In this document: piece by piece, positions 4,450 through 31,818 of the stretch | Position numbering within the stretch: position 1 is the first letter of the stretch | How the letters are laid out: each line of letters begins with the position of its first letter | Virus record (IMG/VR): IMGVR_UViG_3300023273_000942 | Coordinates: 1-31,818 of that record | DNA from: a virus | Reading direction: 5' to 3' (one strand) | DNA length: 31,818 nt | Notes under the pieces: model-generated | Database searches by the model: none | The model's input: the letters and a program-made list of their open reading frames with translations, nothing else | What the model was told of the DNA's origin: nothing | Translations under genes and position numbers: made by a program

Positions 4450-4455
4450 GATAAT

Positions 4456-4461
4456 ATTTTA
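4456..4461 (-). promoter_or_regulatory. Putative -10 box for a leaderless transcript
   Basis: TAAAAT on the minus strand, 6 nt before ATG 4449, so transcription should begin at or next to the A of the start codon. No convincing -35 hexamer is visible at 17 bp. It lies just past the stop of the 4473-5207 gene. Confidence 0.5.
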
Positions 4462-4472
4462 TCACAAACTTG

Positions 4473-5207
4473 CTATTCATACTTTCTTCTTTGCCAAACT
4501 TCATTAAGATATACCCCGCCTTTGGGTGTGCGATATTTCTCAATGTTTGCCATATTGTCATTCCAAATCTTTTCATGATCTGGATATTCATAGTCTGACT
4601 TCCAGCTTTCTCTTTTAAAAGGAATAATCTGCAAGAATGGTGTGCCCTTTGGCAATACACCTTGGTAGTCTTTAGCAAGGAAAAAAGGAACTGTGCCAAA
4701 TAGATTAACGTTATCGCTGTCTATGATTCCGCTAGTAGTTTGAAAAGGAAGCTCATATCTATTCATTGGTTGTATATACAATGCACTATATCCTGACGGA
4801 AGTTTTACTGCCCACTCTCCATACCAAGCAAAATGAAACTGATCATACCCCCATGGCACCTGGAATCCAGGCATAGGTGGTCTTTCTTGTACAAAGTTTG
4901 GGAATCTTTCATCTGTAATCTGTACATGAGGGATACCTTTATCGTCTCTAGTAAACACTAGGTCACATGGTGTTTTAAAGGCATAGCCAGTTTCTAAGCC
5001 ATCATATACTACTGGGCATGACTTCCAGCTGTGGATGTTGTTGCCCTGTGGGTCTTTATAGTTATTTCCTGCTGGGTCCTTATAGTACCTTGGAGCTTGG
5101 CGATACCATTCTGGTATTGTTTTCCCAATAGGTCCTGGGTCTGTGTCATTATCATTTGGATCAACTGCATAGGAGTCAGCGATAAATGTAATCTTTTTAC
5201 TGCTCAT
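4473..5207 (-). CDS. Conserved phage protein of unknown function, related to the DUF6065-like neighbour
   Basis: A 244-residue protein with no catalytic motif I can name. Features: IPEWYR near residue 31, a short duplication YKDPAGNN/YKDPQGNN (42-57), ALYIQPMNRYELPF (142-155) and PKGTPFLQIIPFKR (186-199). The P-x-GTP-x-x-x-IIP pattern is shared with the next upstream gene, so the two look like diverged paralogs. Similar PMNR/IIPFKR proteins occur in marine myoviruses, where they are also unassigned (from memory, not checked). The start ATG overlaps the upstream stop by 11 nt and has AGGGTAAGG before it. Its place inside the oxygenase cluster suggests a linked role, but that is inference. Confidence 0.8.
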   Translation of the reverse strand: MSSKKITFIADSYAVDPNDNDTDPGPIGKTIPEWYRQAPRYYKDPAGNNYKDPQGNNIHSWKSCPVVYDGLETGYAFKTPCDLVFTRDDKGIPHVQITDERFPNFVQERPPMPGFQVPWGYDQFHFAWYGEWAVKLPSGYSALYIQPMNRYELPFQTTSGIIDSDNVNLFGTVPFFLAKDYQGVLPKGTPFLQIIPFKRESWKSDYEYPDHEKIWNDNMANIEKYRTPKGGVYLNEVWQRRKYE

Positions 5208-5907
5208 GCCTTACCCTCATTACAATCTTTTTAGATTCGTGCTTTCCATCTGGGTTGCCATTATGGTCTACTGCATCTCTATAAAAATGCGTCCATGTCC
5301 CAGCCATATTCAGCTCCATACTGACATCACCACGATCTCTCATCTTAGTCTTCCAAGTTTCGTCACGCATGTATGGTGGGTCTCCTGCTGTAACCGACAG
5401 CTCGTGCTCTTGAATACCCGCTGTTGAAATAGGGATGATTGCAGCAATTGGGGTGCCAGCTGGAATGGTAATTTCAATATTTGGCTCTGTTATCATCCAT
5501 GCTATTGGAAGCTCTCCCTGCAAAACTGAGGGGCTAATAATAGTAGACATACACTGAGCACCCCTAATAAACTGATTTGGAACTGGCATTGTAAGTAAAG
5601 AAAGGTCTTCTTTATCTGGTGCGTCAAAGGTTATTCCAGTATAAAAACTAATTGTCCTGTTTCCTCTGCCTGGATGCGTATAGCTTTCACCCTTGAGTGT
5701 CTTTACGTGATCCGAAGTAGAATCGTTTACCCCATCCCAAATAAAAGTAATATCTTCTGGAAGTGATATCCCCCACCCAAGCCTGTTCGATAAAGAAACT
5801 GGAAAACACTGGTATGCATGTCTGTCAAAAGTGAAGTCCATCCAGTCTCTCTGTAGTGGAAGTTGGTCAATAGAGGCTATGCCTCTGCTATATGCATTAA
5901 TCTGCAA
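5197..5907 (-). CDS. DUF6065-like protein
   Basis: A 236-residue protein starting at TTG 5907, two nt after the previous gene's stop. Residues 32-60 (AYQCFPVSLSNRLGW followed by LPEDITFIWDG) and 148-161 (IPAGTPIAAIIPIS) match my memory of the DUF6065 family, which is found in proteobacteria and phages without known function. The C-terminus (DGKHESKKIVMRVRHEQ) is basic. It is coupled by overlap to the related downstream gene. No in-frame ATG gives a better start, although the Shine-Dalgarno (AGAGTGG) is weak. A beta-rich, non-enzymatic or ligand-binding role is possible, but nothing in the sequence proves it. Confidence 0.75.
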   Translation of the reverse strand: MQINAYSRGIASIDQLPLQRDWMDFTFDRHAYQCFPVSLSNRLGWGISLPEDITFIWDGVNDSTSDHVKTLKGESYTHPGRGNRTISFYTGITFDAPDKEDLSLLTMPVPNQFIRGAQCMSTIISPSVLQGELPIAWMITEPNIEITIPAGTPIAAIIPISTAGIQEHELSVTAGDPPYMRDETWKTKMRDRGDVSMELNMAGTWTHFYRDAVDHNGNPDGKHESKKIVMRVRHEQ

Positions 5908-5909
5908 AA

Positions 5910-6623
5910 CTAATCGCCACTCTCTTCCATGAACTTTTCACTGTGAAACTTATTAGAATAATCTAGCATTGTCACAAGAGAATACTTTGTGCCATCAACT
6001 ACTGGCATTGCACGGTGTGGGTACATATAGTTAGACGGAAAAATAAAGAGATCTCCAGCCTTTGGCTTATAGTGAACATTCTGAAGCCTAAAGAAGATTT
6101 CTCCACCAGTATAATTATCGTTAACATAACCAACCAATGACACTACGCAATTATAGCTATACCCGTGGTCTGTGTGCTCCTGGAAGTGTTGCCCTGGACC
6201 ATACTTAATAAAGTTAATTGCCTCCCAATAACGCAACTCTCCAACATTGTGTCTTTTTGTGTAATCCTTTACTGCCTGAAGCTTTCTAAAATAAACATCT
6301 TCCCATAAAGACTGCAATTTTAAGGATGATTCTGATGTATCGTGCTCAATATCTGACTTTTTAAACTTGATATCAAAGCAGTCTCGATACTCTGGCATCG
6401 TCATACCATAGCCCACCATGGCCTTCTGATACTCAAAGCCATTATCTGGCTCCTGCATGACTTCTTCTAGCCTGTCAATAATCTTTATACTTTCTGGCAA
6501 AGCATCGTGGTAGACAAGAATTCCATTGCCAAGGTCTGTTATAGAACTCCACGTTTGCTCTTCAATGTTGTACCAGTTATGAAGCCTTTCTTCATGCTCA
6601 ACCATTTCTTTAAGCTCTTCCAT
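5910..6623 (-). CDS. 2OG-Fe(II) oxygenase, KYS-type subfamily
   Basis: A 237-residue dioxygenase with H150-T-D152, H203 (YPHRA) and K213 (TKYSLVTMLDY) replacing the P4H arginine. An N-terminal helical region (1-60) precedes the beta-helix. It is a clear paralog of the upstream gene: both have WEAINFIKYGPGQHF / YEVFNYVKYEGTGKHF type lead-ins and GDL-x-x-FPS-x-x-x-Y. GAGGAA lies before the ATG. Likely a protein or small-molecule hydroxylase; target unknown. Confidence 0.88.
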   Translation of the reverse strand: MEELKEMVEHEERLHNWYNIEEQTWSSITDLGNGILVYHDALPESIKIIDRLEEVMQEPDNGFEYQKAMVGYGMTMPEYRDCFDIKFKKSDIEHDTSESSLKLQSLWEDVYFRKLQAVKDYTKRHNVGELRYWEAINFIKYGPGQHFQEHTDHGYSYNCVVSLVGYVNDNYTGGEIFFRLQNVHYKPKAGDLFIFPSNYMYPHRAMPVVDGTKYSLVTMLDYSNKFHSEKFMEESGD

Positions 6624-6632
6624 AATTCCTCA

Positions 6633-7379
6633 CTAATATATCAGCTCTTGTTTTGCTTGGGTGTAGTCAAAATACTTTGCTCCGCCCCTATCGTTATAGT
6701 CTGTCATGACAACAATAGAATACTTCGTACCATCAATAATTGGCTCTGACTGGTGTTCATAAATAAAGGTAGACGGGAAAACCACAAGGTCGCCAACTTC
6801 TGGCTTTATTGTTAGGCCAAACCTAGGGAATGTAAGCTCTCCGCCAGTATAGTTATCGTTTAAGTATGCAACAGCAGATACAGTAGTTACATATGCTGGT
6901 CCGTGATCTGCGTGTACAGCAAAATGTTTTCCTGTTCCCTCATACTTTACATAGTTAAAAACTTCATAGTAATTCATACCTACCCCCCAGTATGTGCCAT
7001 AGTCACTAACATGTGGGTGAATTTTATCAAAAGAGAGCTGGTGCACGGCATAGAGTTCTCTATTGCTGTCATTTTCTGGCCCAAAACATTTATGACCAAT
7101 CTTAAAATCTACACAGTCTCTAGCATATGAGATCTTTTCATGCCCCTCAGTAACCAAAGCACCATTCCATGAATGCTCAGAGCCATTAGAAAGGTTTTTC
7201 TCCAGAGTACTAATGATGTATTCTACATCTTTTGGGCTAAAAACATTTTTGTAAACATTAATGCCTAGTGCTGGATTTTCTACTACAATGCCGCTGGACA
7301 TTGTCCTCGTAGCCATCCTATTATGAGAAGTTTCTGACCTGTCTTTGGTCAGCCAAGGATTATTATGTTCTATACCCAT
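6633..7379 (-). CDS. 2OG-Fe(II) oxygenase, KYS-type subfamily
   Basis: A 248-residue dioxygenase with H156-A-D158, H209 (YEHQSEP) and K219 (TKYSIVVMTDY). Its paralog is the next gene downstream (9-nt gap). The open frame extends to 7400, but ATG 7379 is preferred: a perfect TATAAT lies 6 nt before it, so translation probably starts at the 5' end of a leaderless mRNA. This appears to be the first gene of the oxygenase region, separated from the tail genes by a terminator. Confidence 0.88.
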   Translation of the reverse strand: MGIEHNNPWLTKDRSETSHNRMATRTMSSGIVVENPALGINVYKNVFSPKDVEYIISTLEKNLSNGSEHSWNGALVTEGHEKISYARDCVDFKIGHKCFGPENDSNRELYAVHQLSFDKIHPHVSDYGTYWGVGMNYYEVFNYVKYEGTGKHFAVHADHGPAYVTTVSAVAYLNDNYTGGELTFPRFGLTIKPEVGDLVVFPSTFIYEHQSEPIIDGTKYSIVVMTDYNDRGGAKYFDYTQAKQELIY

Positions 7380-7385
7380 ACAAAA

Positions 7386-7414
7386 ATTATACCATAACAA
7401 AAGGCCCGTCGCAA
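7386..7414 (-). promoter_or_regulatory. Promoter of the oxygenase cluster (TTGCGA-N17-TATAAT)
   Basis: Minus-strand TATAAT at 7386-7391 with TTGCGA at 7409-7414, exactly 17 bp apart. The -35 hexamer falls in the loop region of the terminator hairpin of the upstream gene. The distance from the -10 box to ATG 7379 is 6 nt, so the transcript should be leaderless. Confidence 0.65.
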
Positions 7415-17633: not shown

Positions 17634-18019
17634 TATAGTCTGCCTCCAGTTACGTCTCCAATAACAGTAATAGTTCCAACGATGGGAGTCCAGACTGTTT
17701 CTCTATCAATCTGGGCCTGTAGGTCGAAGTTAAGTTCGGCAACTGATCTTTTGATTCCAGTTCCCCAGAACTCTGTTAAGTCTGATGGTGCAGTAATGAC
17801 AATGTCTGTTCCGTCTAGCTCTACGATTAGGTCGTCGAAGACGTTGTCATTCTTGCTATAGGCAGTTGCTTCGAACTGCCAGTTGGTTGTCGGATAAGGA
17901 GTTTCTTCATCGTGCTGCAGAAACTGAACTCGCAGAGACGCGGTGTCGCCCCTAGTGACAATCCACTTAATGTTAACTGGCTCGATGCCAATTTTTTGCA
18001 GTGCAGGATATTTGCTCAT
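17633..18019 (-). CDS. Baseplate-like small protein, paralog of the 13923-14288 product
   Basis: A 128-residue protein with IKWIVTRGDTASLRVQFLQ at 19-37 and DRETVWTPIVGTITVIGDVT at the C-terminus, both matching the 13923-14288 product. It is the first gene of the leftward virion operon. It has no Shine-Dalgarno; TATAAT lies 9 nt upstream. Tentatively a BppU-N-like baseplate protein. Confidence 0.72.
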   Translation of the reverse strand: MSKYPALQKIGIEPVNIKWIVTRGDTASLRVQFLQHDEETPYPTTNWQFEATAYSKNDNVFDDLIVELDGTDIVITAPSDLTEFWGTGIKRSVAELNFDLQAQIDRETVWTPIVGTITVIGDVTGGRL

Positions 18020-18034: not shown

Positions 18035-18226
18035 CCACTATTATAGGACTAGTGCCCAGGTCAGCGGGTATGAGAGAGACAGAAACCTGGACACTAGCCG
18101 TAATCATTATATCATGCGTTTTTATCAAATCGTTATAAACTTTTTTTGTGGCCGTACACACCTGCAACTATGCGGGCTGTTGTCATTCCGTTACATTTCA
18201 AAATGTAATTTTTGGGTTACATCGAG

Positions 18227-19476: not shown

Positions 19477-19642
19477 GCTTCATAAGAATGAAGAATTTTT
19501 GCGAGTTGAAGTACTCCAAAGAGGAAGAAACTCTAAAGAGATTGCTAAGAGGCTACGCGTCTCTTATAAGCTCGTAGAACTTTACCTTATGAAGTATAAT
19601 ATTCCATTTGAGTCGCAAAGACCCAAAGAAAAAGATGTCTAA
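19469..19642 (+). CDS. Small helix-turn-helix DNA-binding protein
   Basis: A 57-residue protein. Residues 18-42 (RGRNSKEIAKRLRVSYKLVELYL) read as a homeodomain-like helix-turn-helix: N-S-K-E-I-A-K-R-L, turn at V-S, then the recognition helix YKLVELYLMK. The ends are basic. It may be a transcription regulator of this phage or part of a terminase-small-like family; the HTH itself is the only clear signal. It overlaps both neighbours by 8 nt. Confidence 0.75.
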   Translation: MDKLHKNEEFLRVEVLQRGRNSKEIAKRLRVSYKLVELYLMKYNIPFESQRPKEKDV

Positions 19643-20402
19643 ACCGATAACAGTATATTGGTCCCCAGATACTTTTGACACAAACACCCCTTACGACGTT
19701 AATGACTTTAACGATCCTGTACCCCTAGCGAAATATTCTTTTCATAGCCAGATAAATGATTCATACTTTTGGCAATGTCCGTCGATCAGAGATGTTACTC
19801 GAAATACCTTCGCATTTACGTCCAAATATGATGAATATACAACATTGGACCCCGCAGAGCTACAAAAGATACACGACGACAATAACCTAACACGTAAAGG
19901 CATTGAGCCTCCAGTTGTCAAGACAACACTCAAAATGCCAGTTATTGCTGCTAGGATGAACTCTTTAGACAACCATGTTAACTTTAATTACGGCAGATCT
20001 TGGTCTTTCTTCGCAGATGAGCCTCTAGAAGCAAAATTTACTGCTCCATGGCTACCACCAACAGCTCCATACCCTGGAACAATCATGGCTCCTGGCACTT
20101 TCGACATAGGAAGATGGTTTAGACCTTTCCATATCGAATATTTTGTTCCTACAACGGCTACATCGTTCGAATTCAAAGAGAATGAGGCCTTTTTCTACCT
20201 CGAATTCCTCACAGATCGCAAAATTATCTTTAAACGCTTCGATATTAGGGATTCTAAGACACTTTTAGGCATCAGCACAGAGTGCGTACTCACTGGAGTC
20301 CACTTCGATCAGCCCTATGGGCTACCAAAACGTTATAAAATGTTCAAAAATAAGGGATACCGCCAAACTATCCTAAAAGAGCTTGCAAATATAACGAAAT
20401 GA
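19635..20402 (+). CDS. Conserved phage protein of unknown function (FDIG-WFRP family)
   Basis: A 255-residue protein from ATG 19635, which overlaps the HTH gene's stop (the frame is open back to TTG 19608). Key phrases: VYWSPDTF at the start, FFADEPLEAKFTAPWLPP, FDIGRWFRPFHIEYF and AFFYLEFLTDRKIIFKRFDI. I remember similar proteins from marine myoviruses, where they are unassigned. Its overall look (opening CPS motif, aromatic-rich strands) recalls the two DUF6065-like genes at 4473-5907, but I cannot show homology. No enzymatic motif seen. Confidence 0.75.
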   Translation: MSKPITVYWSPDTFDTNTPYDVNDFNDPVPLAKYSFHSQINDSYFWQCPSIRDVTRNTFAFTSKYDEYTTLDPAELQKIHDDNNLTRKGIEPPVVKTTLKMPVIAARMNSLDNHVNFNYGRSWSFFADEPLEAKFTAPWLPPTAPYPGTIMAPGTFDIGRWFRPFHIEYFVPTTATSFEFKENEAFFYLEFLTDRKIIFKRFDIRDSKTLLGISTECVLTGVHFDQPYGLPKRYKMFKNKGYRQTILKELANITK

Positions 20403-20557
20403 TAACGTTATAAAATCGTTACCTAATTAAAATGATCAAAATTTCAAAAATGTTTTTACATGTATGATGCATACATATATGAAAAAAAACCACTTTTATT
20501 AGTGAGCACACCACAGAAATCTTTTATAACAGAATGGTAACAATACCCGTGTCCCTC
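20403..20557 (+). other. Intergenic: palindrome and upstream element of promoter A
   Basis: AT-rich. Contains the inverted repeat ATGTATG-ATG-CATACAT (20460-20476) followed by an A-run, possibly a terminator or operator, and the 16-bp element ATAACAGAATGGTAAC at 20526-20541, which ends 16 bp before the next -35 box. Confidence 0.6.
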
Positions 20558-20586
20558 TTGACAAATCCACTCGTAGGGTATAGGCT
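20558..20586 (+). promoter_or_regulatory. Promoter A (TTGACA-N17-TAGGCT)
   Basis: Consensus -35 TTGACA and a TANNNT -10 (TAGGCT) spaced 17 bp. Drives the 20633 operon through a purine-rich, almost C-free leader of about 40 nt ending in AGAAAGTAGGT. Confidence 0.75.
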
Positions 20587-20632
20587 ACTACCATAAAGAA
20601 ATAAAGATAAATAAAAGAAAGTAGGTTTCTAA

Positions 20633-20773
20633 ATGTACAAAGTAACATTCAAAGATTCAATCCTAAAGCAGGCTCTATACCCTGCTACCGTTTCCATCGA
20701 GGAACTAACTCAGAGACTAGAGTCTCAGGGTCTAGTTGTTGTAATGGTTGAGAGGAGTGGAACTCTTGACTAA
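20633..20773 (+). CDS. Small protein, 46 aa, unknown function
   Basis: A 46-residue frame beginning MYKVTFKDSILKQALYPATV and ending VERSGTLD: a beta-alpha-beta pattern without motifs. It shares the leader motif AGAAAGTAGGT with the genes at 21199 and 21499. Its end overlaps the next gene by 8 nt. Unrecognised. Confidence 0.7.
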   Translation: MYKVTFKDSILKQALYPATVSIEELTQRLESQGLVVVMVERSGTLD

Positions 20774-20939
20774 AGAACTCTACCCCGATGAGTTGCTACT
20801 CACTTGCCCCGTGTGTGGGCAGTTGGGTATCCACGCTAACGATTTGTGGAACAAGTCTCAATTTTTCCACAAAGTCCCTTCCGAGCGTGAAGGTTACTAC
20901 ACTTTTACAGAAACTCACCTTATCGGCGTGTCGGCTTGA
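20766..20939 (+). CDS. Small zinc-ribbon-like protein, 57 aa
   Basis: Read from TTG 20766, with GGAG 8 nt upstream; the frame is open further back to 20748, but the overlap with the previous gene supports the internal TTG. It carries CPVCGQLGIHA followed by a histidine (FFHK) about 20 residues later, a plausible C-C-H-H zinc site. The stop codon lies inside the -35 box of promoter B. Confidence 0.65.
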   Translation: MTKELYPDELLLTCPVCGQLGIHANDLWNKSQFFHKVPSEREGYYTFTETHLIGVSA

Positions 20940-20964
20940 CAATGTCAGTGATAGGGTATAGGCT
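20936..20964 (+). promoter_or_regulatory. Promoter B (TTGACA, ATGTCAGTG spacer, TAGGCT)
   Basis: TTGACA-N17-TAGGCT with the recurring ATGTCRGTG spacer start. It is embedded at the 3' end of the preceding gene and feeds a C-poor leader with AAAGGAG before ATG 21012. Confidence 0.8.
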
Positions 20965-21011
20965 TTAGACATAAAGAAAGATAGATTAGATAAAAAAGAA
21001 AGGAGTTCAAA

Positions 21012-21143
21012 ATGAACTCACTAGTAGATACAGACATCAAGTTCTGTGAAATTTGCGATAACTATGTCCCTTCGATTTACATCGAAACCGAAGATGAATT
21101 CGGTTGCCAGTATTGTTGGGAGGCTTACGGCGAAATCAACTAG
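21012..21143 (+). CDS. Two-CxxC small zinc protein, 43 aa
   Basis: Cysteines at FCEICDNYVP and GCQYCWEAYG make a four-Cys zinc knuckle. The gene at 22055-22180 is a close duplicate with the same start (MNSL), both CxxC pairs, the AYGEIN end and the AAAGGAGTTCA leader. Unknown role; small zinc proteins of this kind in phages often bind host proteins or nucleic acid. Confidence 0.8.
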   Translation: MNSLVDTDIKFCEICDNYVPSIYIETEDEFGCQYCWEAYGEIN

Positions 21144-21172
21144 CCGTAAATGTCAGTGGTTCGTGTTAGTAT
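21144..21172 (+). promoter_or_regulatory. Promoter C (ATGTCAGTGGT spacer, TAGTAT)
   Basis: The spacer motif ATGTCAGTGGT followed at the standard distance by TAGTAT; the -35 position is CCGTAA, a poor match, so this copy is recognised through the spacer motif. Confidence 0.6.
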
Positions 21173-21198
21173 TTAGTAAATAGAAAGTAGGTAATAAA

Positions 21199-21372
21199 AT
21201 GTATCAAGTAAAGGTTTTCAACCGCCAGACCAATGAGGTCATAATGGAAAGCGACACTTTCCAGACTCTGTCAGAGGCAGAGGGTATGCGTAGCAATGTC
21301 GGTAGTGGCGAGGGCTACTACTCCGTAATCTTCAAACTAGATGCCGTCTGGTCAGACTTGGTAGGTGCCTAA
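21199..21372 (+). CDS. Small protein, 57 aa, unknown function
   Basis: A 57-residue protein (MYQVKVFNRQTNEVIMESDT... to ...VWSDLVGA) with a beta-beta-alpha-beta look. AGAAAGTAGGTA is its ribosome-binding leader, complementary to the loop of the terminator at 21822. Its stop overlaps the start of the next gene (TAATG). Unrecognised. Confidence 0.7.
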   Translation: MYQVKVFNRQTNEVIMESDTFQTLSEAEGMRSNVGSGEGYYSVIFKLDAVWSDLVGA

Positions 21373-21497
21373 TGGTATGGGTTCCAGAGAATGCTCAGTA
21401 TCTTTTGGGCGGTATCCCTGATAGCGTGTTGCTCTTGACAGTGTCAGTGGTATACCTTATAATTGTAAACAAGATAAGTAAGAAAGTAGGTAAGTAA
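21372..21497 (+). CDS. Small single-helix membrane protein, 41 aa
   Basis: Coupled to the previous gene by TAATG. Residues 19-33 (VLLLTVSVVYLIIVN) form one transmembrane segment, followed by a basic tail KISKKVGK. Promoter D is entirely inside this frame, so the peptide could be a by-product of conserved promoter DNA; the coupled start and good hydrophobic helix favour a real gene. Confidence 0.5.
   Translation: MVWVPENAQYLLGGIPDSVLLLTVSVVYLIIVNKISKKVGK
21435..21463 (+). promoter_or_regulatory. Promoter D (TTGACA-N17-TATAAT)
   Basis: Perfect consensus hexamers at 17 bp with the GTGTCAGTGGT spacer motif. The strongest-looking promoter of the set; drives 21499-21814. Confidence 0.85.
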
Positions 21498-21498
21498 A

Positions 21499-21708
21499 AT
21501 GGACTTTGAGAAACTAGTAGAGTTGGGAATGAGCAAGGCTACCGCTGTCTACTCCGATAGCCCTTATGCCCTTGAGCAAGACACTCGCCGTTTCCTTGAT
21601 GCTATCGCTAGTCAAGATGTCTACACCGCTAGCGACATCGAAGACGAGGTTCGTCTCCGAATGAATGAGCTTGTTCGTCAAATCAACGAGAGGTTCGAGA
21701 ATGCTTGA
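21499..21708 (+). CDS. Small helical protein, 69 aa, unknown function
   Basis: A 69-residue acidic, all-helical protein (MDFEKLVELGMSKATAVYSD, TASDIEDEVRLRMNELVRQI). The leader is AAGAAAGTAGGTAAG. The next gene starts inside its last codons (ATGCTTGA overlap). Unrecognised. Confidence 0.7.
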   Translation: MDFEKLVELGMSKATAVYSDSPYALEQDTRRFLDAIASQDVYTASDIEDEVRLRMNELVRQINERFENA

Positions 21709-21814
21709 GCTGTTGATAGTATTGGCTATACTCTCCATAGGTGGAGCCATTGCCCTAGGGTATTGGACATACCGCCTATCTCGCCCCCGTCGCCGTCGGG
21801 CTACTTGGGTATAG
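21701..21814 (+). CDS. Small single-helix membrane protein, 37 aa
   Basis: Overlaps the previous stop by 8 nt. Residues 2-23 (LELLIVLAILSIGGAIALGYW) form one membrane helix with an arginine-rich tail (RLSRPRRRRATWV), so the C-terminus should be cytoplasmic. Last gene before the strong terminator. Confidence 0.65.
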   Translation: MLELLIVLAILSIGGAIALGYWTYRLSRPRRRRATWV

Positions 21815-21821
21815 CATAGAC

Positions 21822-21876
21822 CCGTCGGCCCCCCATTTCCTACCTACTTTCTTGGGGGGTCGGCGTTATTTTTTTC
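21822..21876 (+). terminator. Rho-independent terminator with a leader-complementary loop
   Basis: Stem CGTCGGCCCCCC paired with GGGGGGTCGGCG (two G-U wobbles), then TTATTTTTTT. The loop contains TACCTACTTTCTT, the exact complement of AAGAAAGTAGGTA in the leader at 21480. Confidence 0.85.
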
Positions 21877-21919
21877 TCGGCGTGTCGACTTGACAGATCC
21901 CAAAAATTTTGCCAGGCGA

Positions 21920-21935
21920 TCGAACACTTGTTCGA
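21920..21935 (+). promoter_or_regulatory. SOS-box-like palindrome TCGAAC-ACTT-GTTCGA
   Basis: A perfect match to the mycobacterial/actinobacterial LexA site TCGAAC-N4-GTTCGA. It lies 60 bp upstream of promoter E, just after a GCCAGGC box. Confidence 0.6.
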
Positions 21936-21937
21936 AT

Positions 21938-21953
21938 ATAACAGAATGGTAAC
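21938..21953 (+). promoter_or_regulatory. 16-bp element ATAACAGAATGGTAAC
   Basis: Direct-repeat TAAC half-sites 11 bp apart. It ends 27 bp before the -35 position of promoter E and is identical to the copy at 20526-20541. Confidence 0.55.
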
Positions 21954-21980
21954 AGTCTTAAGAAACTACGGCGTGTCGCT

Positions 21981-22009
21981 TGTAAAATGTCGGTGGTGTC
22001 CACTAGAGT
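21981..22009 (+). promoter_or_regulatory. Promoter E (ATGTCGGTGGT spacer, TAGAGT)
   Basis: The ATGTCGGTGGT spacer and TAGAGT at the standard spacing; the -35 is TGTAAA, or TTGTAA with an 18-bp spacer. The upstream CGGCGTGTCG is shared with promoter B. Confidence 0.65.
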
Positions 22010-22054
22010 AATAGTATAAAGAAATAAAGAATAAATAAGAAAGGAGTTCATAAA

Positions 22055-22180
22055 ATGAATTCACTACTAGAAATGGATATCAAGTTCTGCGATATCTGCG
22101 ATAACTATGTCCCTGCTACTGATGTAGATGGCGAGTCTGCTTGCCAATACTGCTGGGATGCTTATGGTGAGATAAACTAA
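22055..22180 (+). CDS. Two-CxxC small zinc protein, paralog of 21012-21143
   Basis: A 41-residue duplicate of the earlier zinc protein: same MNSL start, FCDICDNYVP, ACQYCWDAYGEIN end, with a shorter linker. The leader AAGAAAGGAGTTCA is also conserved. Coupled to the next gene by TAATG. Confidence 0.8.
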   Translation: MNSLLEMDIKFCDICDNYVPATDVDGESACQYCWDAYGEIN

Positions 22181-22290
22181 TGTCTCACTATTTCTCAAAT
22201 TGGTTAGATGACGATTGTATCCGCTGTGAATACTGTGGAGTCAATCCCTTCTCCCCCAAAGCCAAAGAGGGATGCCCCCAATCCCTCTGA
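22180..22290 (+). CDS. Small Cys-containing protein, 36 aa
   Basis: Begins in the previous stop. It contains CIRCEYCG and a later C (EGCPQSL), giving four cysteines in a likely zinc knuckle. Unrecognised; the coupling supports translation. Confidence 0.6.
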   Translation: MSHYFSNWLDDDCIRCEYCGVNPFSPKAKEGCPQSL

Positions 22291-22307
22291 GGACCATTAA
22301 GATTAAG

Positions 22308-22323
22308 ATAACAAAATGGTAAC
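22308..22323 (+). promoter_or_regulatory. 16-bp element ATAACAAAATGGTAAC
   Basis: Ends 16 bp before the -35 position of promoter F, the same spacing as at promoter A. Confidence 0.55.
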
Positions 22324-22339
22324 GCATTAAGATATCGGC

Positions 22340-22368
22340 CCTAAAATGTCGGTGGTAGGTGGTAGTGT
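22340..22368 (+). promoter_or_regulatory. Promoter F (CCTAAA, ATGTCGGTGGT spacer, TAGTGT)
   Basis: Conserved spacer motif with TANNNT -10 at the standard distance; the -35 is weak and identical to that of promoter L. Confidence 0.6.
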
Positions 22369-22393
22369 TACTAATAACAAGAAAGGACAACTA

Positions 22394-22603
22394 ATGTCAA
22401 GAACAGTCGCAGATGAAATTGCCCGCTTTGAGGCTACACAGGTAGCCTACGTTGAGAAGCGTGATGGCGAAGAGGGTCTGGATACTATGGACCCACGTGT
22501 AGTAGGTAGGGTTATTGCTCTAATGGCAATCACTATAGCAGAGGGTTCCAAGTCTTGGGGTAGGTTCCTCAAGATGGTCGAGAAGTTTGAGCAGGAGGAC
22601 TAA
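22394..22603 (+). CDS. Small protein, 69 aa, unknown function
   Basis: Starts at ATG 22394 behind GAAAGGACAAC, not at the ATG of the promoter spacer (22346), which is in the same frame. Helical (ADEIARFEATQVAYVEKRD, VGRVIALMAITIAEG). Overlaps the next start (TAATG). Unrecognised. Confidence 0.75.
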   Translation: MSRTVADEIARFEATQVAYVEKRDGEEGLDTMDPRVVGRVIALMAITIAEGSKSWGRFLKMVEKFEQED

Positions 22604-22791
22604 TGTCGTATAATCACAATCCAACAGTAACCGAGTTGCGTCAAGCCTATGAGGTAGCCTATGGCGATAAGGGTGTCTACCAGCTTGTAGGTGCGTTGTT
22701 TGCTAATGTAACCGATATGAAAATAAACCAACTATACAATCAGGCAATCGAAGATGTCAGAAAAGACCTTGAGGATAGGGGACTGCTATGA
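22603..22791 (+). CDS. Small helical protein, 62 aa, unknown function
   Basis: Coupled at both ends (TAATG and ATGATGA). Helical and amphipathic: TVTELRQAYEVAYGDKGVYQ, QAIEDVRKDLEDRGLL. Unrecognised. Confidence 0.72.
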   Translation: MSYNHNPTVTELRQAYEVAYGDKGVYQLVGALFANVTDMKINQLYNQAIEDVRKDLEDRGLL

Positions 22792-22982
22792 TGACACGGA
22801 AAGACTATGTAGCCGTAGCCAAAATTCTGGTGAGCTACAAAGAGGCTATGGGTGAAGAAGCACACGCCAATCTAGTAAATGATTTTGCGGACTATATGGA
22901 AGCAGATAATCCTAGATTCCAAGACTATAAATTTTTGAGGGCGAGTGGCGTGACTGATACTTTCATTCGTATTCCATTCTAG
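22788..22982 (+). CDS. Conserved small actinophage-type protein, 64 aa
   Basis: MTRKDYVAVAKIL at the start and DNPRFQDYKFLRASGV at the end match, from memory, a widespread family of small actinobacteriophage proteins (MTRKDY...ADNPRFDRxRFLxACG) without known function. This supports the actinophage assignment. ATG 22788 overlaps the preceding TGA; ATG 22791 is an equal alternative. Confidence 0.78.
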   Translation: MMTRKDYVAVAKILVSYKEAMGEEAHANLVNDFADYMEADNPRFQDYKFLRASGVTDTFIRIPF

Positions 22983-22990
22983 GCATGTAA

Positions 22991-23018
22991 GCCTGCTCGA
23001 ACGTTTGTTCGGGCGGGC
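22991..23018 (+). terminator. GC-rich hairpin, possible terminator; contains an SOS-box-like core
   Basis: A 12-bp stem with two G-U pairs and a GTTT loop directly after the stop codon; no T-run follows. Its centre, 22997-23012, reads TCGAAC-GTTT-GTTCGG, one base off the actinobacterial SOS box, so the element may be a terminator, an operator or both. Confidence 0.55.
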
Positions 23019-23041
23019 CAGGCTAGATCTGCCAGGCGACC

Positions 23042-23057
23042 GTTACCTAAACGTTAC
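23042..23057 (-). promoter_or_regulatory. 16-bp element, inverted orientation (GTTACCTAAACGTTAC)
   Basis: A reverse-oriented copy of the ATAAC-N6-GGTAAC element, preceded by GCCAGGCGACC, 21 bp before the -35 of promoter G. Confidence 0.5.
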
Positions 23058-23078
23058 GAAAAAAGTTTTAAGATGGAC

Positions 23079-23107
23079 TTGAAAATGTCGGTGGTTCGTG
23101 ATAGGTT
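23079..23107 (+). promoter_or_regulatory. Promoter G (TTGAAA, ATGTCGGTGGT spacer, TAGGTT)
   Basis: All three parts at standard spacing; the -10 ends 6 nt before ATG 23114, so the mRNA is probably leaderless. Confidence 0.78.
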
Positions 23108-23113
23108 TTACTT

Positions 23114-23275
23114 ATGTTAGGAAAAGGAAACGAAGCGAGACGGAAAGCAGAAGCCGCTGAACTATTTAGGCAGATGCTGAAAGCACCGCACCTTGTCCAG
23201 CAGTCCAAAAAATACAAAGGAAGCCGTAAGTCTAAGAACGATAAGGCTATTAGAGAAAGTAAGGATAACTACTAA
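23114..23275 (+). CDS. Small basic protein, 53 aa
   Basis: MLGKGNEARRKAEAAELFRQ followed by a lysine-rich tail (SKKYKGSRKSKNDKAIRES), very basic and helical; may bind nucleic acid. No Shine-Dalgarno, leaderless start. Coupled to the next gene by TAATG. Unrecognised. Confidence 0.7.
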   Translation: MLGKGNEARRKAEAAELFRQMLKAPHLVQQSKKYKGSRKSKNDKAIRESKDNY

Positions 23276-23553
23276 TGGGAGCACTACACGCTATGGAGTT
23301 GGCAGACTCAGACCTAGACCTTGAGAATCAGATTAGGTTTCAGTTGCGAAGCAATCACTATCCCCCCGTCCCGCTTGAGATGGTTCCAGTATGTATTGAG
23401 GCTCTCGATGCGGTGAACACCGATGGAGAGTGGGAGCGTGAGATTACGTTACCAGATGGCATTACGTGGCGAGGCTTGACCTCTGCCCCAGCCAGTGCTA
23501 TTATTGAACAGCACCACCTTGAATTCTGGATTATCGAAAGCGAGTTAGACTAA
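23275..23553 (+). CDS. Small protein, 92 aa, unknown function
   Basis: An acidic helical N-terminus (MELADSDLDLENQIRFQLRS) then PPVPLEMVPVCIEALDAVN, and a beta C-terminal half (EREITLPDGITWRGLT, HHLEFWIIESELD). No motif. Coupled on both sides by TAATG. Confidence 0.72.
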   Translation: MGALHAMELADSDLDLENQIRFQLRSNHYPPVPLEMVPVCIEALDAVNTDGEWEREITLPDGITWRGLTSAPASAIIEQHHLEFWIIESELD

Positions 23554-23675
23554 TGATAGTAGAGCGTAATCACTTTCGCTGTAATACCCCAGTCTCTTTT
23601 GAGCAGGTATCGGACGGATACTATGCCCAATGCCCTAGTTGTGATGAAGACTTATTTAGTTTTGAGGTAAAATGA
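23553..23675 (+). CDS. Small zinc-ribbon protein, 40 aa
   Basis: Starts in the previous stop. Contains H7 and C10 (NHFRCNTPV), then CPSCDEDLFSF: one C plus a CxxC, with the histidine as possible fourth ligand. Unrecognised. Confidence 0.65.
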   Translation: MIVERNHFRCNTPVSFEQVSDGYYAQCPSCDEDLFSFEVK

Positions 23676-23815
23676 CTTATCTTATTGACACTTGGTATGT
23701 GGAGTACGCAGACGGTACCATTGGTCCCGTACAGAATCTAGCTACTGCTAACTACTTGATAATGTCGGAGGCAGCTGTTAGACTAATAGATGTTCACAAA
23801 GACAACTTAGGATAA
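23672..23815 (+). CDS. Small protein, 47 aa, unknown function
   Basis: ATGA overlap with the previous stop. MTYLIDTWYVEYADGTIGPV suggests a two-strand sheet and the rest a helix (IMSEAAVRLIDVHK). A copy of the ATGTC promoter lies inside its second half. Confidence 0.65.
   Translation: MTYLIDTWYVEYADGTIGPVQNLATANYLIMSEAAVRLIDVHKDNLG
23756..23784 (+). promoter_or_regulatory. Internal promoter (TTGATA, ATGTCGGAGG spacer, TAGACT)
   Basis: Matches the recurring promoter at all three parts with 17-bp spacing while lying inside a coding frame. Would drive the 23818 gene with a leader of about 27 nt. Confidence 0.5.
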
Positions 23816-23817
23816 TT

Positions 23818-24084
23818 ATGGAAAACGGCACTTACCTAATGAAGCCCAATGGCAAACTCGCCCCTATCAACTCGCCTAAAGGTTATTGGGTTGCCGAAAG
23901 GGAAGTACAGCTATCCGATGTCCGCGTAGGACAGATAGTCGGTGTGTGGACAGACGACAATGGTAAAGAGTGGGTAGACGAGTCTCACTTAGTGGAAGAC
24001 TTGCCTACCGCTCTTGCCCTTGCCGAAGCGTGGGAACAAATAGCAATCTATGACTGCCAGAACGGAAAGGTAATTGAGGTATGA
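23818..24084 (+). CDS. Small beta-rich protein, 88 aa, unknown function
   Basis: MENGTYLMKPNGKLAPINSP then YWVAEREVQLSDVRVGQIVGVWTDDNG reads as a small beta barrel, with a C-terminal helix (TALALAEAWEQIA). No cysteines or catalytic motif. ATGA overlap with the next gene. Confidence 0.72.
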   Translation: MENGTYLMKPNGKLAPINSPKGYWVAEREVQLSDVRVGQIVGVWTDDNGKEWVDESHLVEDLPTALALAEAWEQIAIYDCQNGKVIEV

Positions 24085-24200
24085 GCGACGATCTAACAAA
24101 AATTTGGAGCAGCGATTCTCTGATTAATCATGATGCACTAGAGAGCATGTCACAGGAAGAACTAAATAAGGTTCTTGATATCCTGAAAAAGCTGGACTAG
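24081..24200 (+). CDS. Small helical protein, 39 aa
   Basis: ATGA-coupled to the upstream gene. Sequence runs MSDDLTKIWSSDSLINHDAL then MSQEELNKVLDILKKLD, a short amphipathic helix. Unrecognised. Confidence 0.6.
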   Translation: MSDDLTKIWSSDSLINHDALESMSQEELNKVLDILKKLD

Positions 24201-24204
24201 CCCA

Positions 24205-24218
24205 GCCCCTTCGGGGGC
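24205..24218 (+). terminator. UUCG-loop hairpin, probable terminator
   Basis: GCCCC-TTCG-GGGGC just after the stop codon. No T-run follows, as is often the case for actinobacterial terminators. A GCCAGGC box follows directly. Confidence 0.55.
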
Positions 24219-24227
24219 CAGGCGGCC

Positions 24228-24243
24228 GTTACCAAACTGTTAT
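24228..24243 (-). promoter_or_regulatory. 16-bp element, inverted orientation (GTTACCAAACTGTTAT)
   Basis: Reverse copy of ATAAC-N6-GGTAAC, 20 bp before the -35 of promoter H. Confidence 0.55.
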
Positions 24244-24263
24244 CAAAAACCTTACGAATGGAC

Positions 24264-24292
24264 TTGACAAACCTACGATTATCCATCATAAT
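24264..24292 (+). promoter_or_regulatory. Promoter H (TTGACA-N17-CATAAT)
   Basis: Good hexamers without the ATGTC spacer. The leader of the next gene contains a GTTGGC/GCCAAC hairpin (24329-24346) and then GAGGA. Confidence 0.65.
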
Positions 24293-24361
24293 AGATACAT
24301 CAGCAAAAGTTGATAATAAACAATAAGTTGGCTGGCTCGCCAACAGAAATGAGGAAGCATA

Positions 24362-24505
24362 ATGACCGCAGTAATTGGACAGTCATTCACCACCGCAAAG
24401 TCAGGCGTTACTGGCGTTGTTCAGGAAATCGTTGAGAACAAGAACGGCTCGTTCCGAGTTCGTCTTGATGTCAATGGTGCTGAGCGTTGGACTACTGTAA
24501 AGTAG
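24362..24505 (+). CDS. Conserved small phage protein, 47 aa (TTAKSGVTG...VRLDVNG-WTTV)
   Basis: IGQSFTTAKSGVTGVVQEIV and SFRVRLDVNGAERWTTVK form a compact beta fold that I recognise from many small actinophage genes; its function is unknown. Preceded by GAGGA. It is flanked by two hairpins and has its own promoter, which suggests high expression. Confidence 0.78.
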   Translation: MTAVIGQSFTTAKSGVTGVVQEIVENKNGSFRVRLDVNGAERWTTVK

Positions 24506-24514
24506 TCTGACCCC

Positions 24515-24556
24515 TATGGGGGGCGGGGTATTCCTACTTTCCCCCGCCTCCCCATA
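24515..24556 (+). terminator. Strong GC-rich hairpin, probable terminator
   Basis: TATGGGGGGCGGGG pairs with CCCCCGCCTCCCCATA around a 12-nt loop, with a one-base bulge. No T-run. The loop carries TATTCCTACTTT, which resembles the leader-complementary loop at 21841. Confidence 0.65.
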
Positions 24557-24579
24557 ATGTCCCCCCTCCGTAGTATAAT
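24551..24579 (+). promoter_or_regulatory. Promoter-like sequence (ATGTC spacer start, TATAAT)
   Basis: TATAAT at 24574-24579 with ATGTC beginning 17 bp before it, as in the recurring promoter. The -35 position (CCCATA) overlaps the terminator stem and is poor. Confidence 0.5.
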
Positions 24580-24606
24580 AAAACCCCCTAAGAGAGAGAG
24601 ATAATA

Positions 24607-25056
24607 ATGGCAAGAAACATTTCTGTAAAGGTTCCCGTAGCATCTTTGGTTGCTGAGATTGAGAACAAGATTGCTGAGATTGACGAGGCAGTCGCTACCT
24701 ACCCCGCAAAGCGTGAGGCTTTTGAGAAGGCTCAGGAAACATACAAGGAAGATGTCGTTTCTTTCCTTGCTAACTTCCTCACTAGCAACAGTCACTCTGT
24801 CGGCTACAACTATGATGACACCCTCCGCATTACCAGAACCTATGGCGGTAGGTTCGAGTTGGCTTTAGATACTGATGCTATTACTGGTTTCCCAGTAGAG
24901 CCAGAGTCACCAACTAAGCCTAACCAGAAAGAGTGGTTTGGTCGTGACCACGCAACCCGCAAGGAGTTGCTGGAGAAGAACCTCCGCATCTTGAGAATGA
25001 CCTCTCAGGAAGAAGTGAACGCATCAACCTATGGTGCGATAATGGAAATCCTGTAA
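24607..25056 (+). CDS. Phage protein of unknown function, 149 aa
   Basis: A helical N-terminal half with a coiled coil (ASLVAEIENKIAEIDEAVAT, KREAFEKAQETYKEDVVSF), a beta segment (YDDTLRITRTYGGRFELALD) and a helical end (RKELLEKNLRILRMTSQEE). The leader is an AGAGAGAGA purine tract. I do not recognise the family; the layout suggests an abundant early structural or regulatory protein. Confidence 0.75.
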   Translation: MARNISVKVPVASLVAEIENKIAEIDEAVATYPAKREAFEKAQETYKEDVVSFLANFLTSNSHSVGYNYDDTLRITRTYGGRFELALDTDAITGFPVEPESPTKPNQKEWFGRDHATRKELLEKNLRILRMTSQEEVNASTYGAIMEIL

Positions 25057-25366
25057 TGGGAATGGTGCTGGGTATCACCTAAAACTGCCTCCCGAATTGG
25101 GGTAGCGACTAGACGGGTAAAATAATTTCGCTAGCCTAACAGAATGTCAAAGTTCTGTTAGGCACAACGAGAAGCCGACGGGTTTCTCGGGGTATGGCTG
25201 AATAATCTGTTGGTTGTATGGGCAGATAAGGCACTAGAGGGCGTAACGGCTGGGTGTAACCCAACTCTAGGTGTGCTGATTAGCGGGCTTGACTCCCACA
25301 AATAGGCACTGGTGGTAAAAAGCAACCCACCTACCCACACCCCTTTTATAGATGAGGAGAAGGAAA
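25057..25366 (+). ncRNA. Gene-free interval with serial stem-loops; candidate structured RNA
   Basis: No frame longer than about 11 codons. Successive stems: TAGCGA/TCGCTA (25103-25108 with 25128-25133), a perfect 11-bp stem with 8-nt loop (25134-25163), a 9-bp stem with GACG loop (25168-25189), and CTAGAG/CTCTAG (25234-25270) enclosing TGGGT-GTA-ACCCA (25251-25263). No T-run after any of them. It ends in GAGGAGAAGG before the next gene. May be a structured RNA or a leader; the two long stems are beyond what chance would readily give. Confidence 0.45.
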
Positions 25367-25783
25367 ATGGTAAGAGAGCGTAAGTCTGTTTGGACATCAA
25401 AGACCGACACTGATAAGGCTAGTAAGCTTATGCAGGACCACTTCAACGATCCCGCGATCACAGCAGAAGAGATGGCTGTGATCAATGCCGAAAGCGGAGT
25501 AGCAACTGTATGCAACGAAGGTGTTGGTTGGTTCGCTAACGACGAGGGCAAGTTCCTGCTGTTAGGATACGTTGGCCAGTTTGGTGAGGTAATCATGTAT
25601 GCTACCGCGGATGAGTTGGCAAGCATCATGTCTGATGAATTTATTTATCTTGATGAGTTTATTAGATCCTTTGGAGGTAGGCTTGAGAGCAACTATGACA
25701 TTTGGTATAATCAAGCAAACAGTGGCCCAAGCCAACAGCCATACAAGGTGATCGAAGCCCTGTCTTCCCTTGCCCCCGCATAG
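25367..25783 (+). CDS. Phage protein of unknown function, 138 aa
   Basis: Start ATG 25367 is chosen because GAGGAGAAGG is immediately upstream; ATG 25352 would put that ribosome site inside the gene. Basic start (MVRERKSVWTSKTDTDKAS), then ITAEEMAVINAESGVATVCN and WFANDEGKFLLLGYVGQFGEV as an alpha/beta domain. The stop codon lies in the loop of a hairpin. Unrecognised. Confidence 0.75.
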   Translation: MVRERKSVWTSKTDTDKASKLMQDHFNDPAITAEEMAVINAESGVATVCNEGVGWFANDEGKFLLLGYVGQFGEVIMYATADELASIMSDEFIYLDEFIRSFGGRLESNYDIWYNQANSGPSQQPYKVIEALSSLAPA

Positions 25784-25789
25784 CGGGGG
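25773..25789 (+). terminator. Hairpin spanning the stop codon
   Basis: CCCCCGC-ATA-GCGGGGG, 7-bp GC stem with a 3-nt loop that contains part of the TAG stop. No T-run. Confidence 0.5.
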
Positions 25790-25790
25790 A

Positions 25791-25806
25791 TCGAACACTT
25801 GTTCGG
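25791..25806 (+). promoter_or_regulatory. SOS-box-like site TCGAAC-ACTT-GTTCGG
   Basis: One mismatch to the actinobacterial LexA consensus; the same core as the perfect site at 21920. Confidence 0.5.
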
Positions 25807-25818
25807 GGCCTGGCCACC

Positions 25819-25834
25819 GTTACCAACCTGTTAT
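25819..25834 (-). promoter_or_regulatory. 16-bp element, inverted orientation (GTTACCAACCTGTTAT)
   Basis: Reverse copy, preceded by GCCTGGC, 20 bp before the next -35 box. Confidence 0.55.
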
Positions 25835-25854
25835 TAAGAAGATGCCCACTGGGC

Positions 25855-25883
25855 TTGCATTATATGCCACCGTCCGCTACAAT
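25855..25883 (+). promoter_or_regulatory. Promoter (TTGCAT-N17-TACAAT)
   Basis: Near-consensus hexamers at 17 bp, no ATGTC spacer. Drives the 25919 gene; leader with AGAGAGG and CAGGG. Confidence 0.65.
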
Positions 25884-25918
25884 TGAATGGTCCGCAAAAC
25901 TAGAGAGAGGCAGGGCCC

Positions 25919-26113
25919 ATGGCACTGTATGATATCGACGTAGAATTAATCGGCAATGACGGTAACGCATTCTCCATCATGGGTGCGGTCCAGAAGTCAT
26001 TACGTAGGGCGGGTGCCCCTCGTGAGGATTTGGACAAGTACTTTGCCGAGGCCACAGCTGGTGACTACGATAACCTTCTTACTGTTACATCTAGGTGGGT
26101 CAACATCGTATGA
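25919..26113 (+). CDS. Conserved small actinophage protein, 64 aa (YDI-V-LIG-DGNAF family)
   Basis: YDIDVELIGNDGNAFSIMGAV, LRRAGAPRED and AEATAGDYDNLL match, from memory, a small protein found across actinobacteriophages and actinobacterial plasmids; function unknown. Length is typical. ATGA overlap with the next gene. Confidence 0.82.
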   Translation: MALYDIDVELIGNDGNAFSIMGAVQKSLRRAGAPREDLDKYFAEATAGDYDNLLTVTSRWVNIV

Positions 26114-26262
26114 GCGGAGACGTTAAAGAATTTGTTATTCATGACACGAAGTCATTCTTTGTGCATGCAGTTAACGAGGATGAAGCTCTTGACAAACTAT
26201 TGAATGGTGAATATCACGACAGCAGTGATTCTGACTTTGTCGTTGAGGAGTGGAAACCGTAG
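26110..26262 (+). CDS. Small acidic protein, 50 aa
   Basis: ATGA-coupled. FVIHDTKSFFVHAVNEDEAL reads as a beta hairpin and helix, followed by an acidic tail (HDSSDSDFVVEEW). The pattern recalls small proteins with an NEDEA turn in phages; unrecognised. Confidence 0.68.
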   Translation: MSGDVKEFVIHDTKSFFVHAVNEDEALDKLLNGEYHDSSDSDFVVEEWKP

Positions 26263-26291
26263 ATTTCTCTAGGGGGAGAAAAAGAAGGTCC

Positions 26292-26321
26292 TGAGCACGA
26301 CCGTTAAAACTGCTCATTTTT
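26292..26321 (+). terminator. Probable rho-independent terminator
   Basis: TGAGCA pairs with TGCTCA around a 13-nt loop, followed by TTTTTC. Modest stem but a clear T-run. Confidence 0.5.
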
Positions 26322-26349
26322 CATGCCCTCGATCCCCGCCTGGCCCCCG

Positions 26350-26365
26350 ATAACGGTTTGGTAAC
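26350..26365 (+). promoter_or_regulatory. 16-bp element ATAACGGTTTGGTAAC
   Basis: Preceded by GCCTGGC; ends 27 bp before the -35 of promoter I, the same spacing as at promoter E. Confidence 0.55.
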
Positions 26366-26392: not shown

Positions 26393-26421
26393 TTGACAAT
26401 GTCGGTGGTTACCTGTATAGT
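26393..26421 (+). promoter_or_regulatory. Promoter I (TTGACA, ATGTCGGTGGT spacer, TATAGT)
   Basis: The fullest match of the recurring promoter: perfect -35, full spacer motif and good -10 at 17 bp. Drives the DUF932 gene. Confidence 0.82.
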
Positions 26422-26456
26422 TATTTATAGTAAACCCCTAACACGAAAGGTGGCTC

Positions 26457-27470
26457 ATGGCCCACGAAATCGAAACAGTAAACGGCGAAGCTACATTTGC
26501 ATCCTTCAGGGAGCCCGCGTGGCACCAGTTGGGGACCGTCTTCAATGAAGAGGTCTCGACTGCCAAGATGCTAGAGCTTGCTAAGCTAAATGATTGGAAC
26601 GTCCGTCTTGAAGAGGTTGTCATCCCAGATGGATTCAACTCTGACAAGAGCTATAACTACGTAGCCCGCACTAACCCATTTGACGCTAGCACTGACATTC
26701 TCGGTGTTGTTGGTGAGCGATACCGCATTCTTCAGAACGAAGAGCTGTTTGACTTTGGCGATGCTCTTCTGCATGGCGGTGGTCGCTGGGAGACTGCTGG
26801 CTCCATCAAGGGTGGTCGTCAGGTCTTTGGCTCTCTTGCTCTTGAGCGTGAGACTGTGCTCGACCCCTCTGGTGTGTCTGATAAGGTAAACACTTATCTT
26901 CTTGTCAACACCTCTCACGATGGTTCGATTGCTATTCAGGCATCTGTTACCCCTGTGCGTGTTGTCTGTGCTAACACTCTAAACCTTGCTCTTGGTTCTG
27001 GTGTTGGTCGTAACCGCAACATCAAGCAGTCATTCAAGATTCGCCACACTCAGACTGCTCAGGGTAAGATTCAAGCAGCTCGTGAGGCTCTCGGTCTTGC
27101 TAATGTCTACATGGACGAATTCGACAAGTTGGCTCAGCAGATGATTGAGCAGACTGTATCTAATGACAAGTTCCAAGAGATTATCCGTCTCGCCTACCCT
27201 GAGCCTGAGGCAGACAAGAAGGGTGCACTCTCCAAGTGGAACAACAAACTTGAGCAGATTGAGCAAATCTATGTCGGTCCATACAATAACACTATTGCTG
27301 GCACCGCTTGGGGCACGCTCAATGCTCTAACTGAGCGACTCGACTGGCACCGTCAGGGACGTAAGGGGACTAATGAGGCTGTCCTTGCGGGTGCTAGCGG
27401 GTTCGACCCTATGGTGAACGCTGAGAAGAACCGCCTGCTTCAGGTAGTTCGTCAAGCGGTAGCCGCTTAG
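26457..27470 (+). CDS. DUF932 / TIGR03299 phage-plasmid-like protein
   Basis: A 337-residue protein with family landmarks: FREPAWHQLGTVF near residue 17, YNYVARTNPFDAS, LGVVGERYRILQNEE, then IQASVTPVRVVCANTLNLAL and the IRHTQTAQGKIQAARE region. The length fits TIGR03299. It is common in actinophages and plasmids; its biochemical role is not established, though replication- or recombination-linked functions have been suggested. AAAGGTGG lies before the ATG. It is the longest rightward gene and has the best promoter. Confidence 0.92.
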   Translation: MAHEIETVNGEATFASFREPAWHQLGTVFNEEVSTAKMLELAKLNDWNVRLEEVVIPDGFNSDKSYNYVARTNPFDASTDILGVVGERYRILQNEELFDFGDALLHGGGRWETAGSIKGGRQVFGSLALERETVLDPSGVSDKVNTYLLVNTSHDGSIAIQASVTPVRVVCANTLNLALGSGVGRNRNIKQSFKIRHTQTAQGKIQAAREALGLANVYMDEFDKLAQQMIEQTVSNDKFQEIIRLAYPEPEADKKGALSKWNNKLEQIEQIYVGPYNNTIAGTAWGTLNALTERLDWHRQGRKGTNEAVLAGASGFDPMVNAEKNRLLQVVRQAVAA

Positions 27471-31518: not shown

Positions 31519-31818
31519 ATACCCCTGATTCTTTTTAAAAGATTTTGCCCATTTTCTTTTAAGTTCCCCTCCTTTTTGTATATGTTTAATAGTTTTATTA
31601 AGGATATTTGGGCATATTTGGACACAATATTTTGGGGATATTCGGCTAAATAAGATTACGATAGATCGAAAAAAATCGTGGCGACATTACGATTCCATAA
31701 CTATATATGTTCTTTTACCCTATATACTTTTCCACAATGTTATTAACAGGTTTATCCACAATGTTAGTAAGATAATTATGGAGAAAAGTGGAGTAAAATG
31801 GAGTAGTTATTCAGCAAA
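31519..31818. other. AT-rich gene-free region with DnaA boxes and iteron-like repeats; candidate origin
   Basis: No gene. Contains phased ATAT elements (31600-31650) like those at 18840-18930, a repeated ATCGTGG sequence (31674), DnaA boxes TTTTCCACA (31728-31736) and TTATCCACA (31752-31760) inside a 12-bp direct repeat TCCACAATGTTA spaced 24 bp, and three 10-bp GGAGNAAART-like units (31780-31809). Confidence 0.55.
31752..31760 (+). promoter_or_regulatory. Consensus DnaA box TTATCCACA
   Basis: Exact match to the bacterial DnaA box; a second, TTTTCCACA, lies 24 bp upstream in the same orientation. Confidence 0.6.

Follow-up and report, generated by a model that had tools for sequence, protein, structure and literature searches.

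MtrA is an OmpR-family response regulator of the Actinobacteria. It is conserved throughout the phylum, whose members generally have MtrAB, is essential in Mycobacterium tuberculosis, and regulates the envelope, division, and osmotic state of the host. The binding site in Corynebacterium glutamicum is the direct repeat (A/G)TAACAATttn(A/G)TAACAAT, attributed to Brocker et al. 2011 as given in PMC3353115, and in that species MtrA acts as an activator at sites upstream of –35 and as a repressor at sites near –10 (PMC3353115). MtrA motifs of Streptomyces (PMC5650626, PMC13189361) and Mycobacterium (PMC6265350) share this general layout but differ in base weights. The boxes of GlnR, an OmpR-family regulator of nitrogen genes, are nearly the same direct repeat: GTnAC-n6-GTnAC in S. 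venezuelae and t/gTAAC-n6-Gc/aAAC in M. smegmatis (PMC10704036).

That phages can exploit a response regulator of their host is known already from cyanophages, whose Pho boxes are bound by host PhoB according to PMC10976474, citing Zeng and Chisholm 2012. As summarized there, Pho boxes resemble the elements proposed here in bringing a host response regulator of the OmpR family to the phage's own promoters, but they differ in regulator, host phylum, and physiological setting (phosphate stress), and we found no helical-phase rule in that summary. A literature search found no paper linking MtrA to phages, and neither the two-way phase rule described below nor the number of such promoters per genome appeared in the papers searched.

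Gene content and probable hosts

The DNA analyzed here (the window) is a 31,818-base IMG/VR virus record. Its left part carries minus-strand tail and baseplate genes, and its right part is plus-strand with many small genes and a DUF932 gene. The nearest isolated relatives of the DUF932 gene are in Streptomyces phages such as Samisti12 (identity ~53%), and phages of this type carry the gene near both genome ends, among small genes. From its genes and these relatives, we infer that the right part is an early region. No close relative of the window region was found in isolated phages, and the sole match in a scan of a genome collection was a distant DUF932 relative in a cyanobacterial bin. This relative (L055) is carried by a 110-kb contig that had been placed in the bin of a cyanobacterial genome; the contig is possibly mis-binned phage DNA.

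With the DUF932 protein as bait we collected 51 loci from relatives, and three further loci were found by pattern. WhiB proteins form a family known from Actinobacteria and actinobacterial phages (PMC10202952). We found WhiB in 13 of the 19 relatives and in 9 of the 14 pattern-found records; of 14 control genomes, C. glutamicum alone has it. The presence of WhiB in most relatives points to actinobacterial hosts, and we take this phage and its dozens of relatives to be freshwater phages of Actinobacteria. Elsewhere in the window, several adjacent genes at 1278–7400 (–) match a phage 2OG-Fe(II) oxygenase family (phrog_61).

Copies of a 16-bp direct repeat precede promoters in the right part of the window

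An earlier note on this DNA had described seven copies of a TAAC repeat with a six-base spacer. All seven are present, but the true form is ATAAC-N5-GGTAAC, a 16-bp direct repeat with an 11-bp period; the N6 version has a single chance-like match, at 26408–26423 (–), over a –10. Allowing TAAC-N4..9-GGTAAC gave eight matches in the window, where 0.33 would be expected; a count of eight was not seen in any of 100 shuffles. The distances from element to –35 given in that note (16, 27, 16, and 27 bp for the forward copies and 21, 20, and 20 bp for the reversed copies) are correct, and all seven elements lie upstream of plus-strand promoters regardless of their own direction.

A weight matrix built from the relatives recovered all seven copies and two strong extras that had been missed (Table 1); in ten Markov control sequences, the top score of each was 7.4–16.7. 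The matrix scan found no strong copies in the structural half of the window. The two extras stand head to head as a 32-bp imperfect palindrome (20391–20422) at the stop codon of the gene at 19608–20402. Two weaker element-like sites, 18121–18136 and 18179–18194 (–), precede a gene that starts at 18019 on the minus strand, and the first of them would overlap a –35 region.

Table 1. Positions of MtrA-box-like elements, their promoters, and the DUF932 gene in the window
Feature	Position	Strand	Distance to –35 end (bp)	–35	–10	Remarks
MtrA-box-like element ATAACGAAATGATAAC	20391–20406	+				Head-to-head pair member; matrix score 23.5
MtrA-box-like element GTAACGATTTTATAAC	20407–20422	–				Head-to-head pair member; matrix score 24.5
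Element ATAACAGAATGGTAAC	20526–20541	+	22	TTGACA 20558–20563	TAGGCT 20581–20586	
Element ATAACAGAATGGTAAC	21938–21953	+	33	TGTAAA 21981–21986	TAGAGT 22004–22009	
Element ATAACAAAATGGTAAC	22308–22323	+	22	weak, 22340–22345	TAGTGT 22363–22368	
Reversed element	23042–23057	–	27	TTGAAA 23079–23084	TAGGTT 23102–23107	Plus-strand promoter
Reversed element	24228–24243	–	26	TTGACA 24264–24269	CATAAT 24287–24292	
Reversed element	25819–25834	–	26	TTGCAT 25855–25860	TACAAT 25878–25883	
Element ATAACGGTTTGGTAAC	26350–26365	+	33	TTGACA 26393–26398	TATAGT 26416–26421	DUF932 promoter
DUF932 gene	26457–27470	+				Pfam PF06067, E 7.6e-52; phrog_1221; 3' of the 26350 element; bait for relatives

The element recurs in related phages

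Further copies in relatives had been named beforehand as the test of the element, and they are there: RTAAC-N6-RTAAC occurs in 19 of 20 related phage records when whole records are searched, and the pattern read backward is far rarer. In the relatives' loci and the three pattern-found ones together, two TAACs at 11-bp spacing occur 117 times, compared with 11–58 times for other spacings. The nonredundant sites are 84% non-coding; coding sequence accounts for 16% of them, for 44% of control matches, and for 63% of the sequence as a whole. Among the isolated Corynebacterium and Streptomyces phages that we examined the pattern is absent, with 0 or 1 copy per record, and the one found in Corynebacterium phage P1201 is inside coding sequence.

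That the repeats are mere chance or DnaA boxes has next to no probability in our estimate. Relatives do have some TAAC repeats that are tandem DnaA boxes (GTGGATAAC), most of them spaced 12 bp apart, and the excess at that spacing comes largely from them, together with some coding repeats. However, in the window copies the first TAAC is followed by A or G rather than C and is not preceded by GTGG, and counts far above both shuffles and the backward-read pattern, the non-coding bias, and the helical phase described below all speak against chance. The counts refute this reading. Near the right end of the window (31728–31760) are the DnaA-box-like sequences TTTTCCACA and TTATCCACA; they and the 12-bp-spaced tandem boxes of relatives, L022 and L029 among them, perhaps belong to a replication origin.

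The element matches the MtrA box of Actinobacteria

The earlier note knew of no named site that fits the element, a statement that does not hold: it agrees with the actinobacterial MtrA box and resembles the GlnR box. Over 133 sites the element has the consensus RTAACRRWTTGRTAACRRT, in which the commonest base equals the C. glutamicum MtrA consensus at 8 of 8 positions that had not been selected for. A random consensus matched the C. glutamicum box as well in 0 of 3000 trials. Both the phage element and the MtrA box of C. glutamicum and other Actinobacteria are 8-bp direct repeats with a 3-bp linker, and thus an 11-bp period, and have RTAAC cores; the A/T-rich inner and trailing bases AATtt and AAT recur in the phage sites, as does a location upstream of –35, where the box lies at activated genes. 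The phage sites differ in mixing A or G at positions after TAAC and in lying in phage genomes, in both orientations and at phased distances. We conclude that, compared as consensus sequences, the phage element is the same element as the MtrA box.

The main rival reading, which we regard as improbable, assigns the sites to a different OmpR-family regulator of the host, with GlnR the likeliest candidate. GlnR boxes of Actinobacteria share the GTnAC-n6-GTnAC direct repeat with its 11-bp period, the T, A, and C positions fit the phage sites, and, to judge by a title cited in PMC10704036, Streptomyces MtrA itself binds GlnR boxes. Yet the second half-site of GlnR boxes is often GaAAC or GcAAC, their first base is G or T whereas that of the phage element is A or G (A in 62% of the 133 sites), and they are found at nitrogen genes. 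The inner RRWTTG, together with the A that often opens the site, brings the phage element closer to the C. glutamicum MtrA consensus. We also considered the RpaB (HLR1) sites of cyanobacteria and set them aside, as these have a 10-bp period and belong to other hosts.

Elements occupy one face of the helix relative to the promoter

Distances in relatives were measured with a spacer motif, ATGTCRGTGG, as a precise ruler. This motif has 86 unique occurrences in these phages, immediately 3' of the –35 position, and TAnnnT stands exactly 17 bases past its start in 81 of them. By this ruler, forward elements end 22, 31–33, 41–45, or 54 bases from the –35 end, and reversed elements 15–16, 25–27, 36–37, or 47 bases from it, with two exceptions at 101. 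In both orientations, the classes are ~10.5–11 bp apart. The 34 nonredundant sites within reach had a phase concentration of 0.89; 5000 simulations, in which period and centre could likewise be chosen, gave 0.57 at most. New regions with the spacer motif yielded 6–8 sites, too few for a decision. The check at promoters without the motif was decisive: 31 such sites have the same phase, with a concentration of 0.63 and P ~4e-6. Because related phages are not fully independent, all these probabilities are indicative.

We additionally scanned all of IMG/VR, blind to phage family, for a reversed element before a consensus promoter. This gave 67 loci, of which 35 lie at 15–17, 5 at 26, and 7 at 37–38 bp; of the 20 off-phase loci, 12 represent a single repeated sequence that looks coding. 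The corresponding forward scan of the collection gave 13 loci, seven of them a single lineage (TAACCTCTTG..., with C after TAAC) at 47 bp, and adds no support. When all sites were pooled (41 forward and 49 reversed), the phase was kept, at concentrations of 0.62 and 0.70, with some sites off phase. The one-face placement first proposed from four forward copies is therefore supported in relatives far beyond them: the element stands upstream of promoters on one helical face in both orientations.

Forward and reversed classes differ by ~6 bp, an offset that is reconciled if the working centre of the element lies ~3 bp downstream or 2 bp upstream of its 16-bp centre. A footprint of exactly 22 bp was considered and dropped, since centre shifts of +3.25 and about –2.1 bp fit the two orientations equally well.

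The phased position upstream of –35 is where activators sit, which suggests the activator role that the earlier note proposed. The sites could instead repress, with MtrA or another host protein holding promoters down until infection advances. MtrA in C. glutamicum represses too (PMC3353115), but there from sites near –10, whereas the phage sites are 11–54 bp upstream of –35 and in phase; we hold repression to be very unlikely.

Two other motifs recur at these promoters. AATGTCRGTGG, which includes the spacer motif used as the ruler, is found directly after –35 in the window at 21149, 21986, 22345, 23084, 26398, and 27626 (+) and also in relatives, and may be a phage- or group-specific promoter element; we found no name for it, the literature search giving just unrelated primers and the like. 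TTAAGA/TTACGA recurs between element and –35, at ~17, 28, 39, and 49 bases before ATGTCRGTGG in relatives' promoters, positions that are also roughly one helical turn apart, and occurs in the window at 21958, 26372, and 27577. It is possibly another half-site or a polymerase contact.

The regulator is probably supplied by the host

The OmpR-type DNA-binding domain (PF00486) was found in none of 18 relatives and none of 14 pattern-found records, several of which exceed 90 kb and several of which are fragments. With phages lacking such a domain, the regulator would be the host's, and a host-supplied regulator is the simplest reading. A query with an approximate MtrA protein sequence had no match in viral contigs. 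MtrAB is present and transcribed in Luna-1 Actinobacteria (Aquiluna) (PMC12422013).

A phage-encoded regulator of another fold could bind the element; many small proteins here are without a known family. Phages often encode their own activators. Against this stand the absence of an OmpR-type domain from the 32 records, the match of the element to a known host site down to the inner bases, and its recovery from phage contigs by a scan blind to family. We give this possibility a low probability.

Implications for actinophage transcription

We consider it likely, from sequence, that the elements are MtrA boxes at which host MtrA would act at early promoters and activate phage transcription. MtrA, probably phosphorylated, would bind the 11-bp direct repeat head to tail, with the site centred roughly 45, 56, 66, 77, or 88 bp before the transcription start, and would contact RNA polymerase from the same helical face each time, and this contact would raise transcription of phage genes. 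Binding by host MtrA is predicted from the site; activation through polymerase contact is suggested by the position and phase of the element, and early timing of the genes it would drive by the genes themselves and their relatives.

More tentatively, widespread freshwater actinophages may tie much of their early transcription to MtrA, from sites in either orientation and at several whole turns, with host state setting the strength of expression. That the host state sensed by MtrB gates infection is speculation. In the spacing and orientation of the activator site, the promoters make up a natural series, in which the rules of contact between OmpR-family regulators and RNA polymerase are directly testable. 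If freshwater actinophages depend on MtrA, infection would be tied to the osmotic and envelope state of the host.
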